A stretch of DNA of 64,000 nt from Terriglobus sp. RCC_193 (GTDB taxonomy: Bacteria; Acidobacteriota; Terriglobia; Terriglobales; Acidobacteriaceae). Position 1 is the first letter of the stretch. Each line of letters opens with the position of its first letter. The notes beneath the pieces are model-generated. The model did not search any database, was not told the DNA's origin, and was given only the letters and a program-made list of their open reading frames with translations. The stretch covers positions 1 through 64,000 of the forward strand of contig NZ_JBFUPK010000004.1 of NCBI RefSeq assembly GCF_041355105.1, given 5' to 3'. The position numbers were made by a program, and so were the translations under genes. Shown here piece by piece: positions 2,508 to 61,279 of the stretch.

Positions 2508-3668
2508 ATGGAACTGATGTCGCACCCTCTTTTGCCGCCCGTTCCGATTCTCGACCTCAGCCGTCAATACTCTGCTGTGGGGGCGGAAATCGGCGCGGCC
2601 GTGGCGGATGTCTGTTCCGCTGGCCGCTTCGTTCTTGGGAAAGAAGTCGTCGAGCTGGAACGTCAGATCGCAGCCGCAACCACTGCGACCGAGGCGGTGG
2701 GATGCGCCAGCGGGACAGACGCACTCTGGTTAGCCATGGCCGCGTTGGGGATCGGAAAAGGCGATGCTGTGGTGACCACGCCCTTCTCCTTCTTCGCAAC
2801 GGTCAGCAGCATTCTGCGTGTAGAGGCAAAGCCGATACTGGCAGACATTGACCCCGTGACGTTCAACCTGAACCCGGTGGCCGTTGCAGATGCAATTGCG
2901 CAACACGAAGATGTGCGCGCTGTGATGCCGGTACACCTCTACGGACAGTGCGCCGATTGGGAAAGCTTTGATCGCATGGCGGCAGAGAATGATCTGCTGC
3001 TGATCGAGGATGCGGCACAGGCCTTTGGAGCCGATTGGAATGGAACTCCTGCAGGCGCGCTTGGGCATGCGGCGGCGTTTTCGTTCTATCCGACAAAGAA
3101 CCTCAGTGCATGGGGCGATGCGGGACTGACCACGTTCCGTTCCTCGACAATCGCGGAACGCGCGAAGGCATTGCGAGCGCATGGGATGCGGCGGCGCTAC
3201 TACCACGATGAGGTGGGATGGAACTCGCGTCTGGATACGGTTCAGGCGGCTGTTCTGCTGGTGAAGATGAAGTACATTGCGCAGTGGAACGAGGATCGCA
3301 GGCAGGTAGCGGCGCGCTATCACGATCTGTTTCATGCGACGACTCTTTTAGGTGCGGTGGAAGATGGCGGCATCATATTGCCTGTGGTGGATGTGCGCGG
3401 CACGCACGTATGGCATCAGTATGTGATTCGCACGCCACGTCGTGATGAGCTGCGCGCGCATCTGTCTGCGCAGGGCATTGGCAGCGAGGTGTATTATCCC
3501 GTTCCGTTGCACATGCAGGATGCATTGAAGCATTTGGGATATCGCGAAGGCCAGTTTCCGGAAAGCGAGAAGGCCGCACGTGAAGTGCTTGCGCTGCCTA
3601 TGTATCCCGAGCTTCGTGAAGATGAACAGGAACGTGTTGTAGAGGCTGTACAAAGTTTCTTTGCCTAA
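2508..3668 (+). CDS. DegT/DnrJ/EryC1/StrS family PLP aminotransferase
   Basis: A cytoplasmic fold-type I PLP enzyme of the sugar aminotransferase family, which transfers an amino group to keto-sugar nucleotides for LPS, O-antigen or glycoconjugate synthesis. The protein has the family-typical N-terminal PILDL-x-RQ opening, the AVxPVHLYGQ segment, EDAAQAFGA, and the PLP-lysine region FSFYPTKNLSAWGDAG. Its 386 residues are the normal family length. The frame opens earlier at a TTG, but the ATG at 2508 (or 2517) fits the family N-terminus. The substrate cannot be read from sequence. It precedes the carrier-protein operon by 185 bases, and Kdo genes follow that operon, so an envelope-polysaccharide role is plausible. 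Confidence 0.88.
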   Translation: MELMSHPLLPPVPILDLSRQYSAVGAEIGAAVADVCSAGRFVLGKEVVELERQIAAATTATEAVGCASGTDALWLAMAALGIGKGDAVVTTPFSFFATVSSILRVEAKPILADIDPVTFNLNPVAVADAIAQHEDVRAVMPVHLYGQCADWESFDRMAAENDLLLIEDAAQAFGADWNGTPAGALGHAAAFSFYPTKNLSAWGDAGLTTFRSSTIAERAKALRAHGMRRRYYHDEVGWNSRLDTVQAAVLLVKMKYIAQWNEDRRQVAARYHDLFHATTLLGAVEDGGIILPVVDVRGTHVWHQYVIRTPRRDELRAHLSAQGIGSEVYYPVPLHMQDALKHLGYREGQFPESEKAAREVLALPMYPELREDEQERVVEAVQSFFA

Positions 3669-3853
3669 GTGGCCAATGCAACTCCCACGGAGTTACTGGA
3701 AGAAATTTGTGGCAACTACATGAATCAAGAGTTGTATCGCGCCAGAACGTGACAGGTAATGTCAAAATAAATAGAGCGTGCCGAGGGTATATCTTGCCAC
3801 GCGTGAGTACTGTCTTCCCTTGAACGCGTACTGAAGATTTTCGACTGCCTGGA

Positions 3854-4096
3854 GTGTATGTGGAGGAGCGTCTCTGTTCCATCTTGAATGAAGTGGGTGG
3901 CCTGACAGTGGATGCTGGAACCCTGGGACCTACTGACAATCTTTTTGCGAAGGGCCTTACTTCCTTCTCAACCGTCACCGTCATGCTGGCGTTGGAAGAG
4001 GAGTTCGAAGTCTCCTTTCCTGACACACTGCTAACGCGTGAGACCTTCACCAGCATTACCTCTCTCTCCAATGCGATCCGAGGTTTGCAAGGATGA
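3854..4096 (+). CDS. Acyl/aminoacyl carrier protein
   Basis: An 80-residue four-helix carrier protein carrying a 4'-phosphopantetheine arm. The attachment serine is Ser37 in KGLTSF, followed by the helix-II sequence TVMLALEEEFEVSFPD. The GLTS motif, instead of the fatty-acid ACP motif DSLD, fits stand-alone carrier proteins that partner amino acid:[carrier protein] ligases. The start is GTG. Its stop overlaps the ATG of the next gene by four bases, so the two are translationally coupled. The ligase two genes downstream makes it likely that this protein is loaded with an amino acid and not with a fatty acid. That assignment is inference from context. Confidence 0.85.
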   Translation: MYVEERLCSILNEVGGLTVDAGTLGPTDNLFAKGLTSFSTVTVMLALEEEFEVSFPDTLLTRETFTSITSLSNAIRGLQG

Positions 4097-5295
4097 ACCC
4101 TGCAAGCACGAGGGACACGACGTCTCTGTTTCAACATGCAGTGGAAGTCGCGGCAACGTATGCGGATGCAGTGGATCGCGAAGCACGTTTCCCGGCAGAG
4201 GCTATTGCTGCGCTACGTGATGCGGGTGCTCTGGGAGCACTGGTTCCGAAAGAACTGGGTGGCCTTGGTCTGTCGGTGAGCGAAGTGGCGTCGCAGTGCC
4301 AGCAGCTTGCCCAGGCGTGCGCGTCCACAGCGATGATTTATGCAATGCACCAGATCAAGGTGTCATGCCTGGTGAACCATGTGCTGGACCAGTCATGGCA
4401 TCGCGAGTTTGTGCGGCGGATCGCGCAGGAGCGTTTTCTGCTTGCTTCCATCACCTCTGAGGTCGGTACGGGTGGCGACCAGCGCTCCAGTGTCTGTGCG
4501 GTGAAGGTGGAAGATGGTGCATTCACTCTGACGAAGAAGGCGACAACCGTTTCGTATGGTGCGTATGCAGATGTGTTCCTGGTGACATCACGCTCGCATG
4601 AGGACGCGCCGCCCTCAGACCAGGTAATGGTGACATGTCTGCGAAGCGACAGCGCACTGGAGATGACCAGCGGATGGGATGCTTTGGGAATGCGTGGCAC
4701 CTGCAGCGCAGGATATGTGTTCCAAAGCAGCGGTATCGCAGACCAGGTGGCGCCTGTGCCGTTTGCCGATATTTCGGCGGATACCATGGTCCCGGTATCG
4801 CACCTGTTATGGAGTGCAGTGTGGACGGGGATTGCCGCAAACGCATTGACACGTGCGCGTGCCTTTCTGCGGGCGCAGGCAAGAAGACAGCCCGGTGGAA
4901 CAACACCGGGAGCAGCCCGGTTGGTACATGCCACGGGCATGCTGGAGATGATGCAGGCGCGCATCCGCACGATGTTGACCAGCTTCGATGCCTGTAACGC
5001 GATGGGCAGCAACCGAGACGTGGTGAGTGCCGAAGAGGCAGGCTGGCCTGTGGGCATGGCGAGGGCAACGGCGCTGAATACGCTGAAGTTTGATGTCTCT
5101 ACGATGTGTCATGAGGTGGTGCTTGAGGCGCTGCTGATCTGTGGCATGGCTGGTTATAAGAACGACACGGAATTCAGCGTGGGGCGGCACTTGCGCGATG
5201 TACTCTCCGCGCAACTGATGATCAGCAATGACCGCATTGCCGCTGGTGCGGGTGCGCTTCTGCTGGCACAACGAAATCAACTGGCAACGCTGTAA
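4093..5295 (+). CDS. Acyl-CoA dehydrogenase family flavoprotein
   Basis: A 400-residue protein with the acyl-CoA dehydrogenase fold: an N-terminal helical domain (LVPKELGGLGLS around residues 52-63), a middle beta domain (about 125-230) and a C-terminal FAD-binding helical bundle ending in GYKNDTEFSVGRHLRDVLSA. Classical members form an alpha,beta double bond in an acyl thioester using FAD. Here the usual catalytic Glu of the YEGT segment is replaced (the aligned stretch reads LMISNDRI), so another base, or another reaction, must be assumed. Four-base overlap with the carrier protein upstream and twelve bases to the ligase downstream suggest it acts on an aminoacyl or acyl group held on that carrier protein, as flavin dehydrogenases do in pyrrole-forming prolyl-carrier systems. 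Confidence 0.85.
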   Translation: MNPASTRDTTSLFQHAVEVAATYADAVDREARFPAEAIAALRDAGALGALVPKELGGLGLSVSEVASQCQQLAQACASTAMIYAMHQIKVSCLVNHVLDQSWHREFVRRIAQERFLLASITSEVGTGGDQRSSVCAVKVEDGAFTLTKKATTVSYGAYADVFLVTSRSHEDAPPSDQVMVTCLRSDSALEMTSGWDALGMRGTCSAGYVFQSSGIADQVAPVPFADISADTMVPVSHLLWSAVWTGIAANALTRARAFLRAQARRQPGGTTPGAARLVHATGMLEMMQARIRTMLTSFDACNAMGSNRDVVSAEEAGWPVGMARATALNTLKFDVSTMCHEVVLEALLICGMAGYKNDTEFSVGRHLRDVLSAQLMISNDRIAAGAGALLLAQRNQLATL

Positions 5296-5307
5296 GGACG
5301 GAGCATC

Positions 5308-6213
5308 ATGAGCGGCAAGGATTTTCGCACTCGCCTGGTGGAAGAAGGGATTCTGATTCCCGGTGGCGTGGACGGACTATGGGGACGGAGCGGTGTTTTC
5401 GAGCGCATATTTGACGGGCTGGATCGTGCCATTACGGACGCAGGTGCATTTGCACGTCCAGAGGTGATGCGCTTTCCTCCGGCCATGTCGCAGGCTGTGT
5501 TTGAAAAAAGCGGGTACATGAAAAACTTCCCGCACTTCGCCGGCACCATTCATTGTTTCTGCGGGGGCGATGCAGCGCATCATCAACTGTTGGGCAAGAT
5601 GCAGCGCGGAGAAGAATGGAGAGAGCAGCAGCAGCCGTCAGACCTGGTTCTGACACCAGCCGCGTGCTATGCGGTCTATCCTGTCCTGGCACGGCGTGGT
5701 CCCATTGCCACCGGCGGCCATCTGGTGGATGTGCAGTCCTTCTGCTTCCGGCATGAACCCTCGCCAGAACCCACGCGGTTCCAGTTTTTCCGGATGCGTG
5801 AGTTTGTCAGCATCGGAACGCACGATGAGGTCATGGCATTTCGCCAGGACTGGATTGAGCGAGGCTCGGCATTTGCAACGTCACTTGGTTTACCGTTTGA
5901 AGTGGATGTCGCGAACGATCCGTTTTTTGGACGGGCCGGGAAACTTATGGCTGATAGCCAGCGTTCACAGAACCTGAAGTTTGAGCTGCTGGTGCCGGTG
6001 AACGATGATGCTGGACCCACCGCCTGCATCAGCTTTAACTACCACACAACATACTTCGGCGATATATGGGAGATGCGCACACCGGACGGTGCTCCCGCGC
6101 ATACTGCCTGCTGCGCCTTTGGTATGGAACGTCTTGTATTGGCACTGCTGAAACATCACGGATTCGATATCGATTCGTGGCCATCCGCTGTACGCAATAT
6201 CCTGCACCTCTGA
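5308..6213 (+). CDS. Amino acid--[carrier protein] ligase (class II aaRS-like)
   Basis: A stand-alone class II aminoacyl-tRNA-synthetase-like catalytic core related to atypical seryl-tRNA synthetase. Such enzymes, characterised from Bradyrhizobium, activate a small amino acid (glycine or alanine) with ATP and transfer it to the phosphopantetheine of a carrier protein instead of tRNA. Motif 2 is visible as CFRHEPSPEPTRFQFFRMRE (146-165) and motif 3 as AFGMERL (270-276). Cys120, Glu165 and Cys268 stand at the spacing of the family's active-site zinc ligands. There is no tRNA-binding arm, and the length (301) is that of the family. The carrier protein lies two genes upstream in the same operon. 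Amino-acid specificity cannot be read by eye. Confidence 0.9.
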   Translation: MSGKDFRTRLVEEGILIPGGVDGLWGRSGVFERIFDGLDRAITDAGAFARPEVMRFPPAMSQAVFEKSGYMKNFPHFAGTIHCFCGGDAAHHQLLGKMQRGEEWREQQQPSDLVLTPAACYAVYPVLARRGPIATGGHLVDVQSFCFRHEPSPEPTRFQFFRMREFVSIGTHDEVMAFRQDWIERGSAFATSLGLPFEVDVANDPFFGRAGKLMADSQRSQNLKFELLVPVNDDAGPTACISFNYHTTYFGDIWEMRTPDGAPAHTACCAFGMERLVLALLKHHGFDIDSWPSAVRNILHL

Positions 6214-6260
6214 TTCACTTTTGTTGACTGCCATCTTCTCTTGATTGGAAACCCCCTGCT

Positions 6261-8030
6261 GTGAACCCGAACAGCCTGACAATAGCAACAACCCCTCTCT
6301 ATTTTGGTGGTCGCTTCGGCTGGCTGCATAGGCCAAAGTCGCAGGACCAGCCCCCCGCATTTTGTGCCGTGGTTTGCTCTGCCTATGGGCAGGAAGAAAT
6401 GTGCACCCACTATGGCGTAATGGGCCTTGCAGATGAGTTGGCGTTGGCTGGCGTGCCCACGCTTCGTTTTGACTATCTGGGCGCATGCAATAGCGACGAC
6501 GGCGACGTCTGCCTGAGGGGATTTGTAGAGGACACGGTGCGAGCGGTCGAGTGTCTGCGACAGCATTGTGGGCCGCTTCCCGTTGTACTGGCAGGTGTGC
6601 GCCTTGGAGCGATGGTGGCGTTGTCTTCGTCTGGACGCGTAGCTGGTGTGGCAGGCGTTGTGCTGATGGCGCCGGTTCTCAGCGGTAGGACGTATATGCG
6701 AGAGGTTCGTGCCGCCGCCGCTGTATCACGGTTGGCAAGCCTCGATCCGCCGCCGCAGGCCGGTAGCGGAGAGGTTCTGAACACGAACGGATTTCACTGG
6801 TCCGCCATGTTGCAGGATGAGGTGAGCACCGCAGACCTGACGCATCTAACGGCTCTCCATGCTCCTTTGCTGGTACTACCTTCGCCACAGGATAGGCAAT
6901 CTCCAAAAGTCGCGGAAAAGTGGGCTGCCACTGGAGCTCCCGTATCTGTTGTGCCGTTTGCGGAGTATGGCACATGGATGCAGGACCCTACGTTGCACAG
7001 CAATCCTGTGCAGGCATTTGCCGCCATTCGCAACTGGCTAAAGGAACTTCCCGCAGTGGAAGAAAAGGAACTGCATGGGACTCTGCCCGGCTCTACGCGG
7101 ACGCTGCGTGGCGAAGGATTTATGGAGGAGCCCGTACGGTTTGGCCCTGACCAAAGCCTGTTTGGCATTCTGTGCCTTCCTGCCGATGGTAAGGCCGCCG
7201 AGGTTGCAGCGCTTCTGCTGCATGAGGGGAGCAGCTACACCATTGGCAATGGACGCGCCTATGTGAAGCTGGCCAGGACATTGGCACGACAGGGCATTGC
7301 GTCGTTGCGCATCGATCTGTCTGCCACCGGAGACAGCCCGGCCAGGAATACACGACATCCACATTACGATCTGGAACGCATTCCAGAGAGCGTCGCCGCG
7401 CTGGATCTGCTACAGCAGCGTGGCTTTCCCGTGGCGGTCGCCTTCGGCCAGTGTGCCGGAGCCTATACGGCCTACCAGGTTGTCCTGGCGGATGAACGGA
7501 TCGTGGGTGGTGTGATCACAAACATCCAGAAGTTCACATGGCACTATGGGGATGACATTGCCGTTTCATTTCGTGACAACAAGCGTTCTCTGAAGGGCTA
7601 TTGGCGTGCAATGCGTAGCAAAGGGGAATGGAAACGCGTACTGCGTGGCGACGCGGACATGAGCGGTATTGTCCGTGTGTTGCTGAAACGTGGATTCATG
7701 CAGGTCACACATCAGGTGAAGAGCCTTTTGCCACCTGCACCGGACTCTGAGATGGCAATCGTGCATGCGCAGATGCGTCGTCTGGCGCAGCGTGGAGTGC
7801 AACTCCATCTCCTCTTCAGTGACGATGACCCCGGCCTATCAGAGATGTGGATGCAGTTTGGCCGCAAGGCTCGACGGCTGAAGAACTTTGCTCCCATTCG
7901 CATGACGCTAGTAAAGCATGCGGATCATCATTTCAACGGAAGCGATGCCCGCGAACGGTTTTACGAACTGGCGTCGGTATGGATGAAAGAGGCCGTTGCG
8001 TCGCGGGCGGCGTCTATCGTGGTGCGGTAG
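6261..8030 (+). CDS. Tandem two-domain alpha/beta hydrolase with altered nucleophiles
   Basis: A 589-residue protein made of two serine-aminopeptidase-like alpha/beta hydrolase domains (about 1-255 and 290-585). In the first domain the nucleophile elbow reads GVRLGA, with Arg where Ser is expected, so it is probably not a hydrolase. In the second the elbow is GQCAGA, with Cys as the candidate nucleophile, followed by an acid region LFSDDDPG and a His in VKHADHHFN. A Cys triad would suit a thioesterase or acyl transfer role. Two-domain or paired hydrolases of this kind are known from exosortase/PEP-CTERM polysaccharide loci. It starts at GTG, 47 bases after the ligase, and probably releases or transfers the group carried by the carrier protein (inference). 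Confidence 0.8.
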   Translation: MNPNSLTIATTPLYFGGRFGWLHRPKSQDQPPAFCAVVCSAYGQEEMCTHYGVMGLADELALAGVPTLRFDYLGACNSDDGDVCLRGFVEDTVRAVECLRQHCGPLPVVLAGVRLGAMVALSSSGRVAGVAGVVLMAPVLSGRTYMREVRAAAAVSRLASLDPPPQAGSGEVLNTNGFHWSAMLQDEVSTADLTHLTALHAPLLVLPSPQDRQSPKVAEKWAATGAPVSVVPFAEYGTWMQDPTLHSNPVQAFAAIRNWLKELPAVEEKELHGTLPGSTRTLRGEGFMEEPVRFGPDQSLFGILCLPADGKAAEVAALLLHEGSSYTIGNGRAYVKLARTLARQGIASLRIDLSATGDSPARNTRHPHYDLERIPESVAALDLLQQRGFPVAVAFGQCAGAYTAYQVVLADERIVGGVITNIQKFTWHYGDDIAVSFRDNKRSLKGYWRAMRSKGEWKRVLRGDADMSGIVRVLLKRGFMQVTHQVKSLLPPAPDSEMAIVHAQMRRLAQRGVQLHLLFSDDDPGLSEMWMQFGRKARRLKNFAPIRMTLVKHADHHFNGSDARERFYELASVWMKEAVASRAASIVVR

Positions 8031-8083
8031 CTGTTTCTGGTTGGGATGCGAGTCTCCCCGCACTGCTCTATTCTCATAGAGGA

Positions 8084-8917
8084 ATGTTGAATAGGGTTGC
8101 AGTCAGAGACGTTACATTTTCCAACGCTTTGCCGCTCGCGTTGATCGCCGGGCCGTGCCAGATGGAAAGCCGCGCGCATGCTCTGGAAGTTGCCTCTGCG
8201 CTGAAAGAGATGGCAACACGTCTGGGCATTGGGCTGGTATACAAGTCCAGCTTTGATAAGGCGAACCGCACCAGCGCGAACGCGGCTCGTGGCATTGGGT
8301 TGGAAGCATCGCTGCCGATTTTTGCAGAGATCCGCGAAAGCCTCGGATTACCAACGCTGACGGATGTCCATGAATCATGGCAGTGCGCGGAAGTGGCGCA
8401 GGCCGTGGATGTATTGCAGATTCCAGCGTTCCTTTGTAGACAGACGGATCTGTTGCTGGCTGCCGCTGCTACCGGTAGAACGGTCAATGTGAAGAAGGGA
8501 CAGTTTCTTTCCCCACAAGAGATGACACATGTGGTGGAGAAGTTGGCCGATGCAAAGGGCGGTGTACTGGTGACGGAGCGTGGCACCACATTTGGCTACA
8601 ACACGTTGGTGACGGATATGCGTTCGTTGCCGGTGTTGGCACAGACGAATGCTCCGGTGATCTTTGATGCCACGCATTCCGTGCAGCAGCCGGGTGGATT
8701 GAACGGAGCAAGTGGTGGACAACGTGAGTTTGTTCCGGTACTGGCGCGAGCTGCTGTCGCTGTGGGTGTTGCCGGCGTGTTTATTGAAACGCATCCTGAT
8801 CCTGACCATGCGCCCAGCGATGGGCCAAACATGATTGCTCTGAAAAATCTGCCGCAGTTGGTGGAAGACCTGATGGCGTTTGATCAGCTTGCAAAACAGC
8901 GTGTGCTGCGCGGATGA
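8084..8917 (+). CDS. kdsA: 3-deoxy-8-phosphooctulonate (Kdo-8-P) synthase
   Basis: Condenses phosphoenolpyruvate with arabinose 5-phosphate to Kdo-8-phosphate, the first committed step of Kdo for the LPS inner core. Family motifs are IAGPCQMES near the N-terminus, KSSFDKANRTS, TDVHE, IPAFLCRQTDLL, NVKKGQFL, FDATHSVQQPGG and ETHPDPDHAPSDGPNM. The Cys in AGPC places it in the metal-dependent class; the Escherichia coli type has Asn there. The frame is open from further upstream inside the hydrolase gene, but homology begins at this ATG. The AGAGGA motif directly abuts the ATG, so initiation at the TTG three bases later is also possible. kdsD overlaps its stop. Confidence 0.95.
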   Translation: MLNRVAVRDVTFSNALPLALIAGPCQMESRAHALEVASALKEMATRLGIGLVYKSSFDKANRTSANAARGIGLEASLPIFAEIRESLGLPTLTDVHESWQCAEVAQAVDVLQIPAFLCRQTDLLLAAAATGRTVNVKKGQFLSPQEMTHVVEKLADAKGGVLVTERGTTFGYNTLVTDMRSLPVLAQTNAPVIFDATHSVQQPGGLNGASGGQREFVPVLARAAVAVGVAGVFIETHPDPDHAPSDGPNMIALKNLPQLVEDLMAFDQLAKQRVLRG

Positions 8918-10904: not shown

Positions 10905-12053
10905 TCATTCTGGCGAGGGCGTGGCGATGGCCAAGGGTGGCTCTTTGACAGCAGGCACCCCAGCAGCGGAATCCACCAGGCGAGGGAAGAACTTGTCTCG
11001 GAGTGCCAATGTCGGGAATTCAATCAGCCGGGTCATAAGTATCCCGACCAATATGCCCGCAATGGGAGCAAGGATGCGGTTCGCTGCGGCTTCGTGCGCT
11101 GGCCAAAAACGATGTGTCAGCGAATAGATGGACGTTGAGGTGGAGACGTGCCAGAGATAAATACCGTACGAATAGACGCCGATCCAGGCGACCGCGCGAT
11201 AAAGCCAGGAGTGGCGATGGCCGGGGCGGTAGAGCAATAGAAAAAGCGCAACACCACTCAAATCAGCAAGAAGAGTCCATAGGGGTGGTGCCCATGCCTG
11301 ATGTATTGAAAGGCGGAAAAAGAGAAGCGTGAGACTGATGACCGCGATCCAGAGTGGACGCATATTCTGCACACGGGAGAAGGTTTTCGGTGCGAAGTGA
11401 AAAAGCATCGCAAGGAGAACACCGAAAAGAATGCCGTGAAGCCGGGTGAATGTGAATGTGTAGCTATCCACATGGTAGACGCAGGAAATCCAAAAACTAC
11501 GACCAATTGTGAATGCCGCCAATGCCGCCACGATGCAGAAGACAGTGCGCCACTGCAACTTGAATGATGCGGCAAGGAAGAGCAGAGTCATCAGCAGAAG
11601 ATAGGCGTGTTCCTCAACAGCGAGTGTCCATGTATGGGCGATGCCACCCATGTAGTTCTGAATGTTAAGGAAGTTACCCAAGAGAAACCGGAACGTATGA
11701 CGACCGGTTAGAAGACTTGCAATCAGAAAGATGTAGTACTGCGGCCAGATCTTCAGGCCACGGCGCACGAGGAAACGCTTGATATTGATGTTTCCGCGAA
11801 CCTTCCATTCTTTGAGCAGCAAACCGCCCACAAGAAATCCGCTGAGTACAAAAAATATATCGACGCCCGCTGTACCGAAGGCAGGCCACCCCAAGCGCAG
11901 AAAAGGCCAGAAGAGTATGTAGGACGAGTGGAAGTCAACCACCATGAGGATCGCGATTCCTCGAATGAAGTCCAATTCGATTTCACGCCGCTGTGGCTTT
12001 GTTTCTGGACGCAAAGAAACTGATTCTTCTGGAATCACTGGGCTGTGCTTCAT
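10905..12053 (-). CDS. Acyltransferase 3 family membrane protein
   Basis: An integral membrane O-acyltransferase of the acyltransferase-3 family (OafA/NodX type), which moves acyl groups, often acetyl, to sugars of the envelope. Seen are the family-opening segment ELDFIRGIAILMVVDFHSSY (residues 26-45), FVLSGFLVGGLLLKEW, and about ten hydrophobic helices across 382 residues. It has no C-terminal SGNH domain. It starts two bases after the permease stop and ends nine bases before the deaminase, suggesting one operon. The acceptor is unknown. Confidence 0.88.
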   Translation of the reverse strand: MKHSPVIPEESVSLRPETKPQRREIELDFIRGIAILMVVDFHSSYILFWPFLRLGWPAFGTAGVDIFFVLSGFLVGGLLLKEWKVRGNINIKRFLVRRGLKIWPQYYIFLIASLLTGRHTFRFLLGNFLNIQNYMGGIAHTWTLAVEEHAYLLLMTLLFLAASFKLQWRTVFCIVAALAAFTIGRSFWISCVYHVDSYTFTFTRLHGILFGVLLAMLFHFAPKTFSRVQNMRPLWIAVISLTLLFFRLSIHQAWAPPLWTLLADLSGVALFLLLYRPGHRHSWLYRAVAWIGVYSYGIYLWHVSTSTSIYSLTHRFWPAHEAAANRILAPIAGILVGILMTRLIEFPTLALRDKFFPRLVDSAAGVPAVKEPPLAIATPSPE

Positions 12054-59886: not shown

Positions 59887-60079
59887 CTTTGAGTGCCTGC
59901 CCTTAGTGATGTGGTATCGTCACTTCTGGTCCGGCTTTCCGGATTGATGTGACGCCCAATGAGAATCTCCACCCAAACCGTGAAGTAGTCGCACACCGCG
60001 TTTCTGACGCGTAGTTTGTGCCATGCTGCCGCTGATTGCGGCAATCACGTTGTTGCAGTGCATGTGGAGTTTCTCATTT

Positions 60080-61279
60080 ATGGCGCGAGCCCGCCTTCTT
60101 ATTTTCTTTGTCGTTCTTCTGGATGCCATGGGCATCGGGATTGTCTTTCCTACGTTGCCGGGACTGCTGCGTGTGCTGATGCACGACGGCGGTGGTGATC
60201 CTGCGCGGGCGTATGGCTACCTGTTGTCTGCTTATGCATTGAGTATGTTTTTTGCTTCGCCCGTTCTGGGTGCGTTGAGCGACCGCTTTGGACGGAGACC
60301 GGTGTTGCTGCTTTCGCTGCTGGGCACTGCGTTTGATGATCTGATGATGGGACTGGCACCGACGCTGTGGATTCTGTATGCGGCGCGCACGCTGGCGGGT
60401 TTTTCTGGCGCGAACCTGACGGTGGCGAACGCTTATCTGGCGGACATTACGCCGGAAGAAGAACGTTCCGGGGCGTTCGGGAAGATGAATGCCTGCTTTG
60501 GTGTGGGGTTCATTGCGGGGCCGGTGCTGGGCGGGATTGCGGGCATGTATTCGCTGCGTGCGCCGTTTTATCTGGCGGCTGTGTTGAACATTGTGGGTGC
60601 AGTGCTGGCGGTGTTTGTGCTGCCGGAGTCGCGGAAGGTGACGGAGACGAAGCGGATCACGCTGGCGCAGTTGAATCCGTTTGCGTCGTTGCGCAATGTG
60701 TTTCGCCTGCGCGGCATTGGGCCGATGCTGTATGTGTTCTGCACCATGGATATGGTGGGGCAGGTGCCGTCGGTGTTGTGGGTGATTTATGGCAACAGCC
60801 GCTTTGGATGGACGCCGTTCATGGTGGGTGTGTCGTTTGCCCTGTTCGGGCTGCTGCATGCGGTTTTTCAATCGATATTGCCGGAGCGGTTTCAACGCTG
60901 GGTGGGAGAACGAGGCAGTGTGCTGGCAGGCATTGCTGCGGATACGACGGGGTATGTGCTGTATTCGATCGCGTCGACGACTGTGGCGGCGTTGTCGATT
61001 CTGCCGTTGCTGTGCCTGGGCGGGATTGCGCTGCCATCGGTGCAGTCGATGCTGTCGCGCAGCGTGGATGAGTCACGCCAGGGTGAGTTGCAGGGTGTGC
61101 TGACGAGTCTGAATAGTTTGATTGCAGTGGGCGGGCCGGTGGTGGCTTCCAGCTTGTACTCCGTGGCGCGGACACGGATTCCGCAGTATCCGGGGGCTAT
61201 CTGGCTGGCGCCGGTCTTGTTGTATGTGCCATGCGTGGCGATGCTGTTGTGGCGCAATAGAAAATCGGCTGCGGTTTAG
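60080..61279 (+). CDS. MFS transporter (TetA-like drug/H+ antiporter type)
   Basis: A 12-helix inner-membrane transporter of the major facilitator superfamily, about 399 residues. The order FFVVLLDAMGIGIVFPTLPG in helix 1, GALSDRFGRRPVLLLSLLG between helices 2 and 3, ARTLAGFSGANLTVANAYLADI and the motif-C-like segment GPVLGGIAGMYS is that of the TetA/TCR1 multidrug group. Substrate unknown; similarity alone does not show tetracycline resistance. An ATG with GGAG nine bases upstream is chosen; earlier ATG codons are in frame. Confidence 0.9.
   Translation: MARARLLIFFVVLLDAMGIGIVFPTLPGLLRVLMHDGGGDPARAYGYLLSAYALSMFFASPVLGALSDRFGRRPVLLLSLLGTAFDDLMMGLAPTLWILYAARTLAGFSGANLTVANAYLADITPEEERSGAFGKMNACFGVGFIAGPVLGGIAGMYSLRAPFYLAAVLNIVGAVLAVFVLPESRKVTETKRITLAQLNPFASLRNVFRLRGIGPMLYVFCTMDMVGQVPSVLWVIYGNSRFGWTPFMVGVSFALFGLLHAVFQSILPERFQRWVGERGSVLAGIAADTTGYVLYSIASTTVAALSILPLLCLGGIALPSVQSMLSRSVDESRQGELQGVLTSLNSLIAVGGPVVASSLYSVARTRIPQYPGAIWLAPVLLYVPCVAMLLWRNRKSAAV

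Follow-up and report, generated by a model that had tools for sequence, protein, structure and literature searches.

A four-gene operon around a predicted amino acid:[carrier protein] ligase in Terriglobus sp. RCC_193 and its possible role in extracellular glycan synthesis

The window analyzed here is a 64,000-nucleotide stretch of the genome of Terriglobus sp. RCC_193 (contig NZ_JBFUPK010000004.1, positions 1 to 64,000). Four open reading frames (ORFs) near its start encode a carrier protein, a flavoprotein with the acyl-CoA dehydrogenase (ACAD) fold, a predicted amino acid:[carrier protein] ligase and an alpha/beta hydrolase:

3854..4096, + strand: carrier protein, 80 aa; stand-alone, phosphopantetheine-binding, with attachment Ser37 in the motif LTSF
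4093..5295, + strand: ACAD-fold flavoprotein, 400 aa; PF02771/PF00441, without the catalytic Glu, oxygenase-like
5308..6213, + strand: amino acid:[carrier protein] ligase, 301 aa; NF005479, class II aminoacyl-tRNA synthetase (aaRS) core
6261..8030, + strand: two-domain alpha/beta hydrolase, 589 aa; PF12146 and PF00561

All four ORFs run in one direction, with a 4-bp overlap followed by spacers of 12 and 47 bp, exactly as described in the initial annotation. No riboswitch that could point to the amino acid was found among Rfam matches upstream of the genes, either in the window or in three related loci (L018, L165 and L042).

The ligase scores 469 bits against the NF005479/PRK07080 model ‘amino acid--[acyl-carrier-protein] ligase’ (cut-off 357, residues 4-300), and the carrier protein scores 82.3 bits against NF005480/PRK07081 (cut-off 72) and 34.5 bits against PF00550. 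Both PRK models are therefore matched above their cut-offs, in support of the earlier claim that the ligase is encoded together with its own carrier protein. The ligase consists of the 301-residue core only, lacks a tRNA-binding domain, and has as its nearest relatives in the Protein Data Bank (PDB) the Bradyrhizobium japonicum structure 3mey and the related 4h2w (E 1e-88 to 1e-90). Residues C120, E165 and C268, which align with C131, E176 and C279 of 3mey (positions read from the alignment) and which we take to be zinc ligands, are invariant along with the motif 3 residue R275 in 85/85 homologues, and Ser37 of the carrier protein is kept in 81/81. Its sequence identifies the protein as an amino acid:[carrier protein] ligase, with a predicted loading activity; glycine is the substrate of its best-studied relatives. 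The Bradyrhizobium ligases (3mey, 4h2w; Mocibob 2010, 2013) belong to the same family and share their zinc ligands and catalytic residues with the window ligase. The role of such ligases has been described as unknown (PMC9437257).

The operon was compared with 80 homologous loci from a scan of GTDB contigs and with four further Acidobacteriota loci. Among the loci with enough upstream sequence (n = 80), a carrier protein is encoded upstream of the ligase in 80/80 and an ACAD-like protein in 79/80, usually overlapping or within ~50 bp, so that a chance neighborhood does not account for these genes. This trio of carrier protein, flavoprotein and ligase spans Alpha- and Betaproteobacteria and Acidobacteriota. 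Downstream (n = 75), a DUF1839 protein is encoded in 71/75 loci and an 820-aa GH2/beta-mannosidase-like protein (GH2L) in 70/75; a gene for the two-domain hydrolase occurs no more than 10 kb away in 40/75, and 73/75 have DUF1839 or the hydrolase. Because these partners vary among loci while the trio persists, the trio is the conserved unit and its downstream partner is exchangeable. The compact form, in which carrier protein, flavoprotein, ligase and hydrolase occur without DUF1839 and GH2L, was found only in the window and in Sphingomonas aquatilis (L018), whose ligase is the best match of the GTDB scan (74% identity) and whose four genes lie between Wzz/Wza/Wzx/WecG and a Bac_transf gene. 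The earlier expectation that the genes stay together in relatives thus holds for the trio. A search for further four-gene copies in the Sphingomonadaceae found the ligase in 2/401 genomes, the second (43%) without the partners within 1.5 kb.

DUF1839 has earlier been noted as papain-like and perhaps glycan-processing (PMC10318531). A papain-like DUF1839 protein with the motif TNCY.D is followed by GH2L at L042:10882-14334, L082:10882-14432 and ~70 further loci; this pair accompanies the trio almost without exception, and GH2L has conserved putative catalytic Glu residues in the motifs GGSE and SECL. Both genes are absent from the window locus, and a DUF1839 search of the window genome gave no match, although the control search matched nowhere either.

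The ligase was also found in 90/398 genomes from the order of Bosea. Ligases 95-97% identical to the crystallized Bradyrhizobium enzyme adjoin the same ACAD-like gene as in the window, with a carrier protein gene close by. At these Bradyrhizobium-type loci, however, the carrier protein gene is divergent and the hydrolase, which lies directly downstream of the ligase in the window, is missing. In ten such loci (L165-L174), a weakly GNAT-like ORF lies near the ligase in 9/10, and 5/10 have a second small carrier-protein-like ORF (without Pfam confirmation), an AMP-binding ligase and an SDR-like ORF.

Comparison with congeners by BLASTN places the operon within an insertion:

3669..8060, no strand assigned: inserted segment of ~4.4 kb, between degT and kdsA and missing in congeners
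2508..3668, + strand: DegT-family sugar aminotransferase (PF01041, 355 bits); ancestral kdsA neighbor, outside the operon
8084..8917, + strand: kdsA, 3-deoxy-D-manno-octulosonate (Kdo)-8-phosphate synthase (NF003543, 414 bits); ancestral flank, outside the operon

Congener loci L099/L100 match the window up to 3665-3667 and resume from 8061/8079, and ten congeners have degT immediately before kdsA, with no operon in between (DegT 69-94% and kdsA 76-97% identical to the window). The ligase is present in 1/150 genomes of the family, the window genome only, and in 10/396 of a phylum sample, five close and five distant, which speaks against the operon as a system of the Acidobacteriota as such. 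Distant Acidobacteriota ligases (L006-L010, 28-34%) had no ACAD-like partner in the three examined at length and were set aside as other subfamilies. Separate trees of all four proteins place the window sister to the Sphingomonas copies with support of 0.99-1.0. Given this rarity, the insertion relative to congeners and the agreement of all four trees, the operon was acquired as one block, with degT and kdsA as its landing site. No repeats were found at the edges of the insertion, and no promoter site above chance was found before it.

As a mere landing site, degT and kdsA provide no argument for an envelope glycan target, and the glycan target that was first proposed on the strength of these two neighbors loses that footing; it gains support instead from the exopolysaccharide contexts elsewhere that are described below. 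It could still be that the operon acts on lipopolysaccharide (LPS) or on a Kdo/amino-sugar envelope glycan through co-transcription with degT and kdsA, since the insert lies on the same strand between the two genes with no promoter-like site before it. We consider this very improbable: the degT-kdsA pair occurs without the operon in the ten congeners, and relatives of the operon are found at exopolysaccharide rather than Kdo loci.

The flavoprotein carries the Pfam domains Acyl-CoA_dh_N (PF02771) and Acyl-CoA_dh_1 (PF00441), and its AlphaFold model (pLDDT 84.8) matches ACADs with a TM of ~0.8, indicating that the ACAD fold is present. The positions of the catalytic glutamate were set by alignment to PDB acyl-CoA dehydrogenases, using the conserved RD motif and a helix G Gly placed by eye, and neither position holds a glutamate. 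The equivalent of MCAD E376 is Ile377 (I/V in 80/81 family members), and the equivalent of IVD E254, position 239, is L/V/M/F/I/T in 80/80, mostly L and never acidic. Residues His237, Trp240 and Trp244 are invariant and Asn379 and Arg381 nearly so, and these conserved residues mark a distinct subfamily. A Foldseek search with the model ranks the monooxygenases DszC/TdsC/MsuC at 1-9, with true dehydrogenases just behind. Among PDB matches to the family profile, acyl-CoA dehydrogenases (including 7p98 and 8i4p) are mixed with the amino-sugar N-oxygenases KijD3, DnmZ and 3mxl. The protein thus joins the two features expected of a DszC/KijD3-type monooxygenase, the closest fold match and no catalytic Glu. 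Monooxygenases of this type work with reduced FMN/FAD, O2 and a reductase partner; no gene for such a reductase is present among the operon genes (the genome beyond the operon was not searched).

These results bear on the initial suggestion that the flavoprotein may dehydrogenate an aminoacyl-carrier protein. A true dehydrogenase would convert the aminoacyl thioester to a dehydroamino-acyl or imino thioester, with a loss of 2 Da, as in pyrrole synthesis from the prolyl-peptidyl carrier protein (PCP), and the hydrolase would then release or transfer the product. While the ACAD fold, the Pfam domains and the profile matches to 7p98 and 8i4p fit such a reaction, the catalytic Glu is absent from both known positions across the family and monooxygenases come first in the fold ranking; a loss of 2 Da is therefore not what one would expect first. 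Moreover, the match to the prolyl-PCP dehydrogenase model RedW is 24.5 bits, below SfnB, DszC and FadE16, and glycine, on which the best-studied relatives act, has no beta carbon to desaturate. We regard dehydrogenation in this form as unlikely. Both reactions are predictions from sequence and model, and oxygenation seems somewhat likelier for this flavoprotein.

The hydrolase does appear to be of the Cys type, as first proposed. The triad of its second domain, Cys398-Asp523-His556, is found in every homologue with sequence there (C398 in 40/40; D523 and H556 in 39/39). In the first domain, residue 114 at the nucleophile elbow (window 6600-6602) is Arg in 32/42 homologues and Gly in 10, and this domain may therefore bind instead of cleaving. 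Foldseek matches to the model (pLDDT 84.5) are generic lipases, esterases and alpha/beta hydrolases that give no hint of the substrate. Both domains resemble the exosortase-A-associated hydrolases 1 and 2 (TIGR03100/03101), which are families of exopolysaccharide loci; in the window the two domains are fused in one protein, and both fall below the cut-offs (98.7 against 168.45 bits and 51 against 202.75 bits). Because a Cys nucleophile suits a thioester donor, we propose that the hydrolase is an aminoacyl transferase or a thioesterase.

The genomic surroundings of the homologous loci point to exopolysaccharide synthesis. Neighbors conserved across genera include the initiating sugar transferase, Wzc/Wzz, glycosyltransferases, ManC, and Crp-type and VpsR/sigma54 regulators. 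With a fixed reference set (sugar transferase, Wzc/Wzz, GT4 and ManC), exopolysaccharide genes were found in 42/65 loci and in 1/40 control windows (Fisher p = 2e-11). The p value overstates the case, because only seven of the genomes with loci supplied the controls and because loci of one genus do not count as independent observations. When the loci that supplied the reference proteins are removed, 35/58 retain such genes.

In Burkholderia cenocepacia (L082), the gene order is sugar transferase, Crp, Crp, acyl carrier protein (ACP), ACAD, ligase, DUF1839, GH2L, sigma54 and ManC. This order agrees with the Bcam1350-1340 region of the Bep locus, an assignment made by position, in which berA is Bcam1349 and berB is Bcam1342 and where cyclic di-GMP (c-di-GMP) regulators are found (PMC5552954), while manC is Bcam1340 (PMC5507470). 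By position, exactly six genes (Crp, ACP, ACAD, ligase, DUF1839 and GH2L) occupy Bcam1348-1343. The five-gene ligase cluster itself, L082 8482-14432, lies between berA and berB and corresponds by position to BCAM1343-1347. No paper on the locus tags BCAM1343-1348 was found in the literature searched. In the bec cluster of B. pseudomallei, a transposon mutant of becG, an ACAD-domain gene, is biofilm-deficient (PMC5507470), and the primary screen for biofilm mutants picked all bec genes but becF, becM and becO (PMC5507470).

The same surroundings could be explained if the pathway made a small molecule that diffuses away, either a signal derived from an amino acid or a siderophore-like compound, and shared no more than its regulation with the biofilm genes. 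A stand-alone carrier protein with a ligase, a flavoprotein and a thioesterase-like hydrolase makes up a typical tailoring set, and c-di-GMP regulators flank the Burkholderia copy (PMC5552954). This explanation is quite improbable in our view, given that the core has no conserved association with a condensation enzyme, an exporter or a transporter, and that GH2L, which is a conserved partner, suggests a sugar as the substrate.

With somewhat more confidence than doubt, we read the window operon as a compact version, gained by horizontal transfer, of an aminoacyl-carrier-protein pathway that is widespread and acts in the synthesis of exopolysaccharide or another extracellular glycan. In such a pathway, the ligase would activate a small amino acid (Gly or Ala by homology) with ATP and load it onto the phosphopantetheine of the co-encoded carrier protein, a step suggested by solved and assayed relatives. 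The flavoprotein would then alter the aminoacyl thioester; the missing Glu and the fold match suggest that oxygenation or some other non-classical flavin chemistry is more probable here than alpha,beta-dehydrogenation. Finally, the Cys-Asp-His hydrolase would take the group over from the carrier protein and attach it to a glycan intermediate in the cytoplasm, at the hydroxyl or amine of a sugar, and in the common form of the locus DUF1839 and GH2L would act in place of, or beside, the hydrolase.

Several points weigh against this reading. Every chemical step of the window operon is deduced from its genes: which amino acid is loaded, what the flavoprotein does to it, how it is passed on and what accepts it. 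What the data establish is the identity of the genes, their conserved catalytic residues and linkage, the exopolysaccharide context of relatives, and the insertion and joint inheritance of the four genes. The operon sits in a degT-kdsA locus, so its place gives no polysaccharide target. Matches to the exopolysaccharide reference set cover 15/26 genera, with none in 11/26, and DUF1839, GH2L and the hydrolase are all missing from the Bradyrhizobium-type loci, where an exopolysaccharide context would be conjectural. In the bec cluster, becF (the carrier protein by position) was in the transposon library and was not picked in the screen (PMC5507470), and the becG phenotype could be due to polarity of the transposon insertion. 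In addition, the published repeat unit of Bep consists of plain Gal-Glc-Gal-Man, with no amino acid reported (PMC7084887). Extraction of that polymer used 0.3 M NaOH and its structure was solved in NaOD (PMC7084887), alkaline conditions under which esters on it would be lost.

The proposed pathway shares its logic with the Dlt system for D-alanylation of teichoic acids, in which an activated amino acid passes by way of a carrier protein to an envelope polymer. The Dlt system, however, uses an ANL-type ligase with DltB (MBOAT) and DltD, whereas the window has a class II aaRS-like ligase, neither DltB nor DltD, and an additional flavoprotein and Cys hydrolase. A second parallel is butirosin biosynthesis (BtrJ/BtrI/BtrH), which combines an aminoacyl carrier protein, oxidative tailoring and a papain-like acyltransferase to a sugar, DUF1839 being papain-like as well (PMC10318531); its ligase and flavoprotein belong to other families, and the window has no papain-like protein. 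A third is given by the bec/bep clusters of Burkholderia: in B. cenocepacia L082, the stretch from berA to berB includes counterparts of the carrier protein, flavoprotein and ligase. DUF1839 and GH2L come after the ligase in that locus; both are absent from the window operon, which in turn has no adjoining polysaccharide polymerization genes.

More tentatively, and with doubt outweighing confidence, the orphan ligases may be the loading step of an undescribed, widespread system of exopolysaccharide decoration, in which a flavin oxygenase and then a Cys or papain-like transferase would form a base-labile ester on a lipid-linked sugar, a modification that would be missed in alkali-extracted polymers such as Bep. 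We found no paper that joins DUF1839 with the ligase or ties the ligase to exopolysaccharide; subscription papers lay outside the search, and priority is not established. A ligase family of unassigned role gains a testable job, with an ACAD-like partner, an exopolysaccharide association, the becG biofilm mutant and tractable bacteria at hand, and context is provided for DUF1839 and for the genes between berA and berB.

Two further genes of the window lie outside the operon. An ORF that by eye resembles an acyltransferase-3/OafA-type membrane protein lies at 10905-12053 on the - strand, 2.9 kb downstream of the operon, and an MFS transporter near the Tet(A)/Tet(B)/Tet(C) efflux family (412 bits, cut-off 475) is encoded at 60023-61279 on the + strand.

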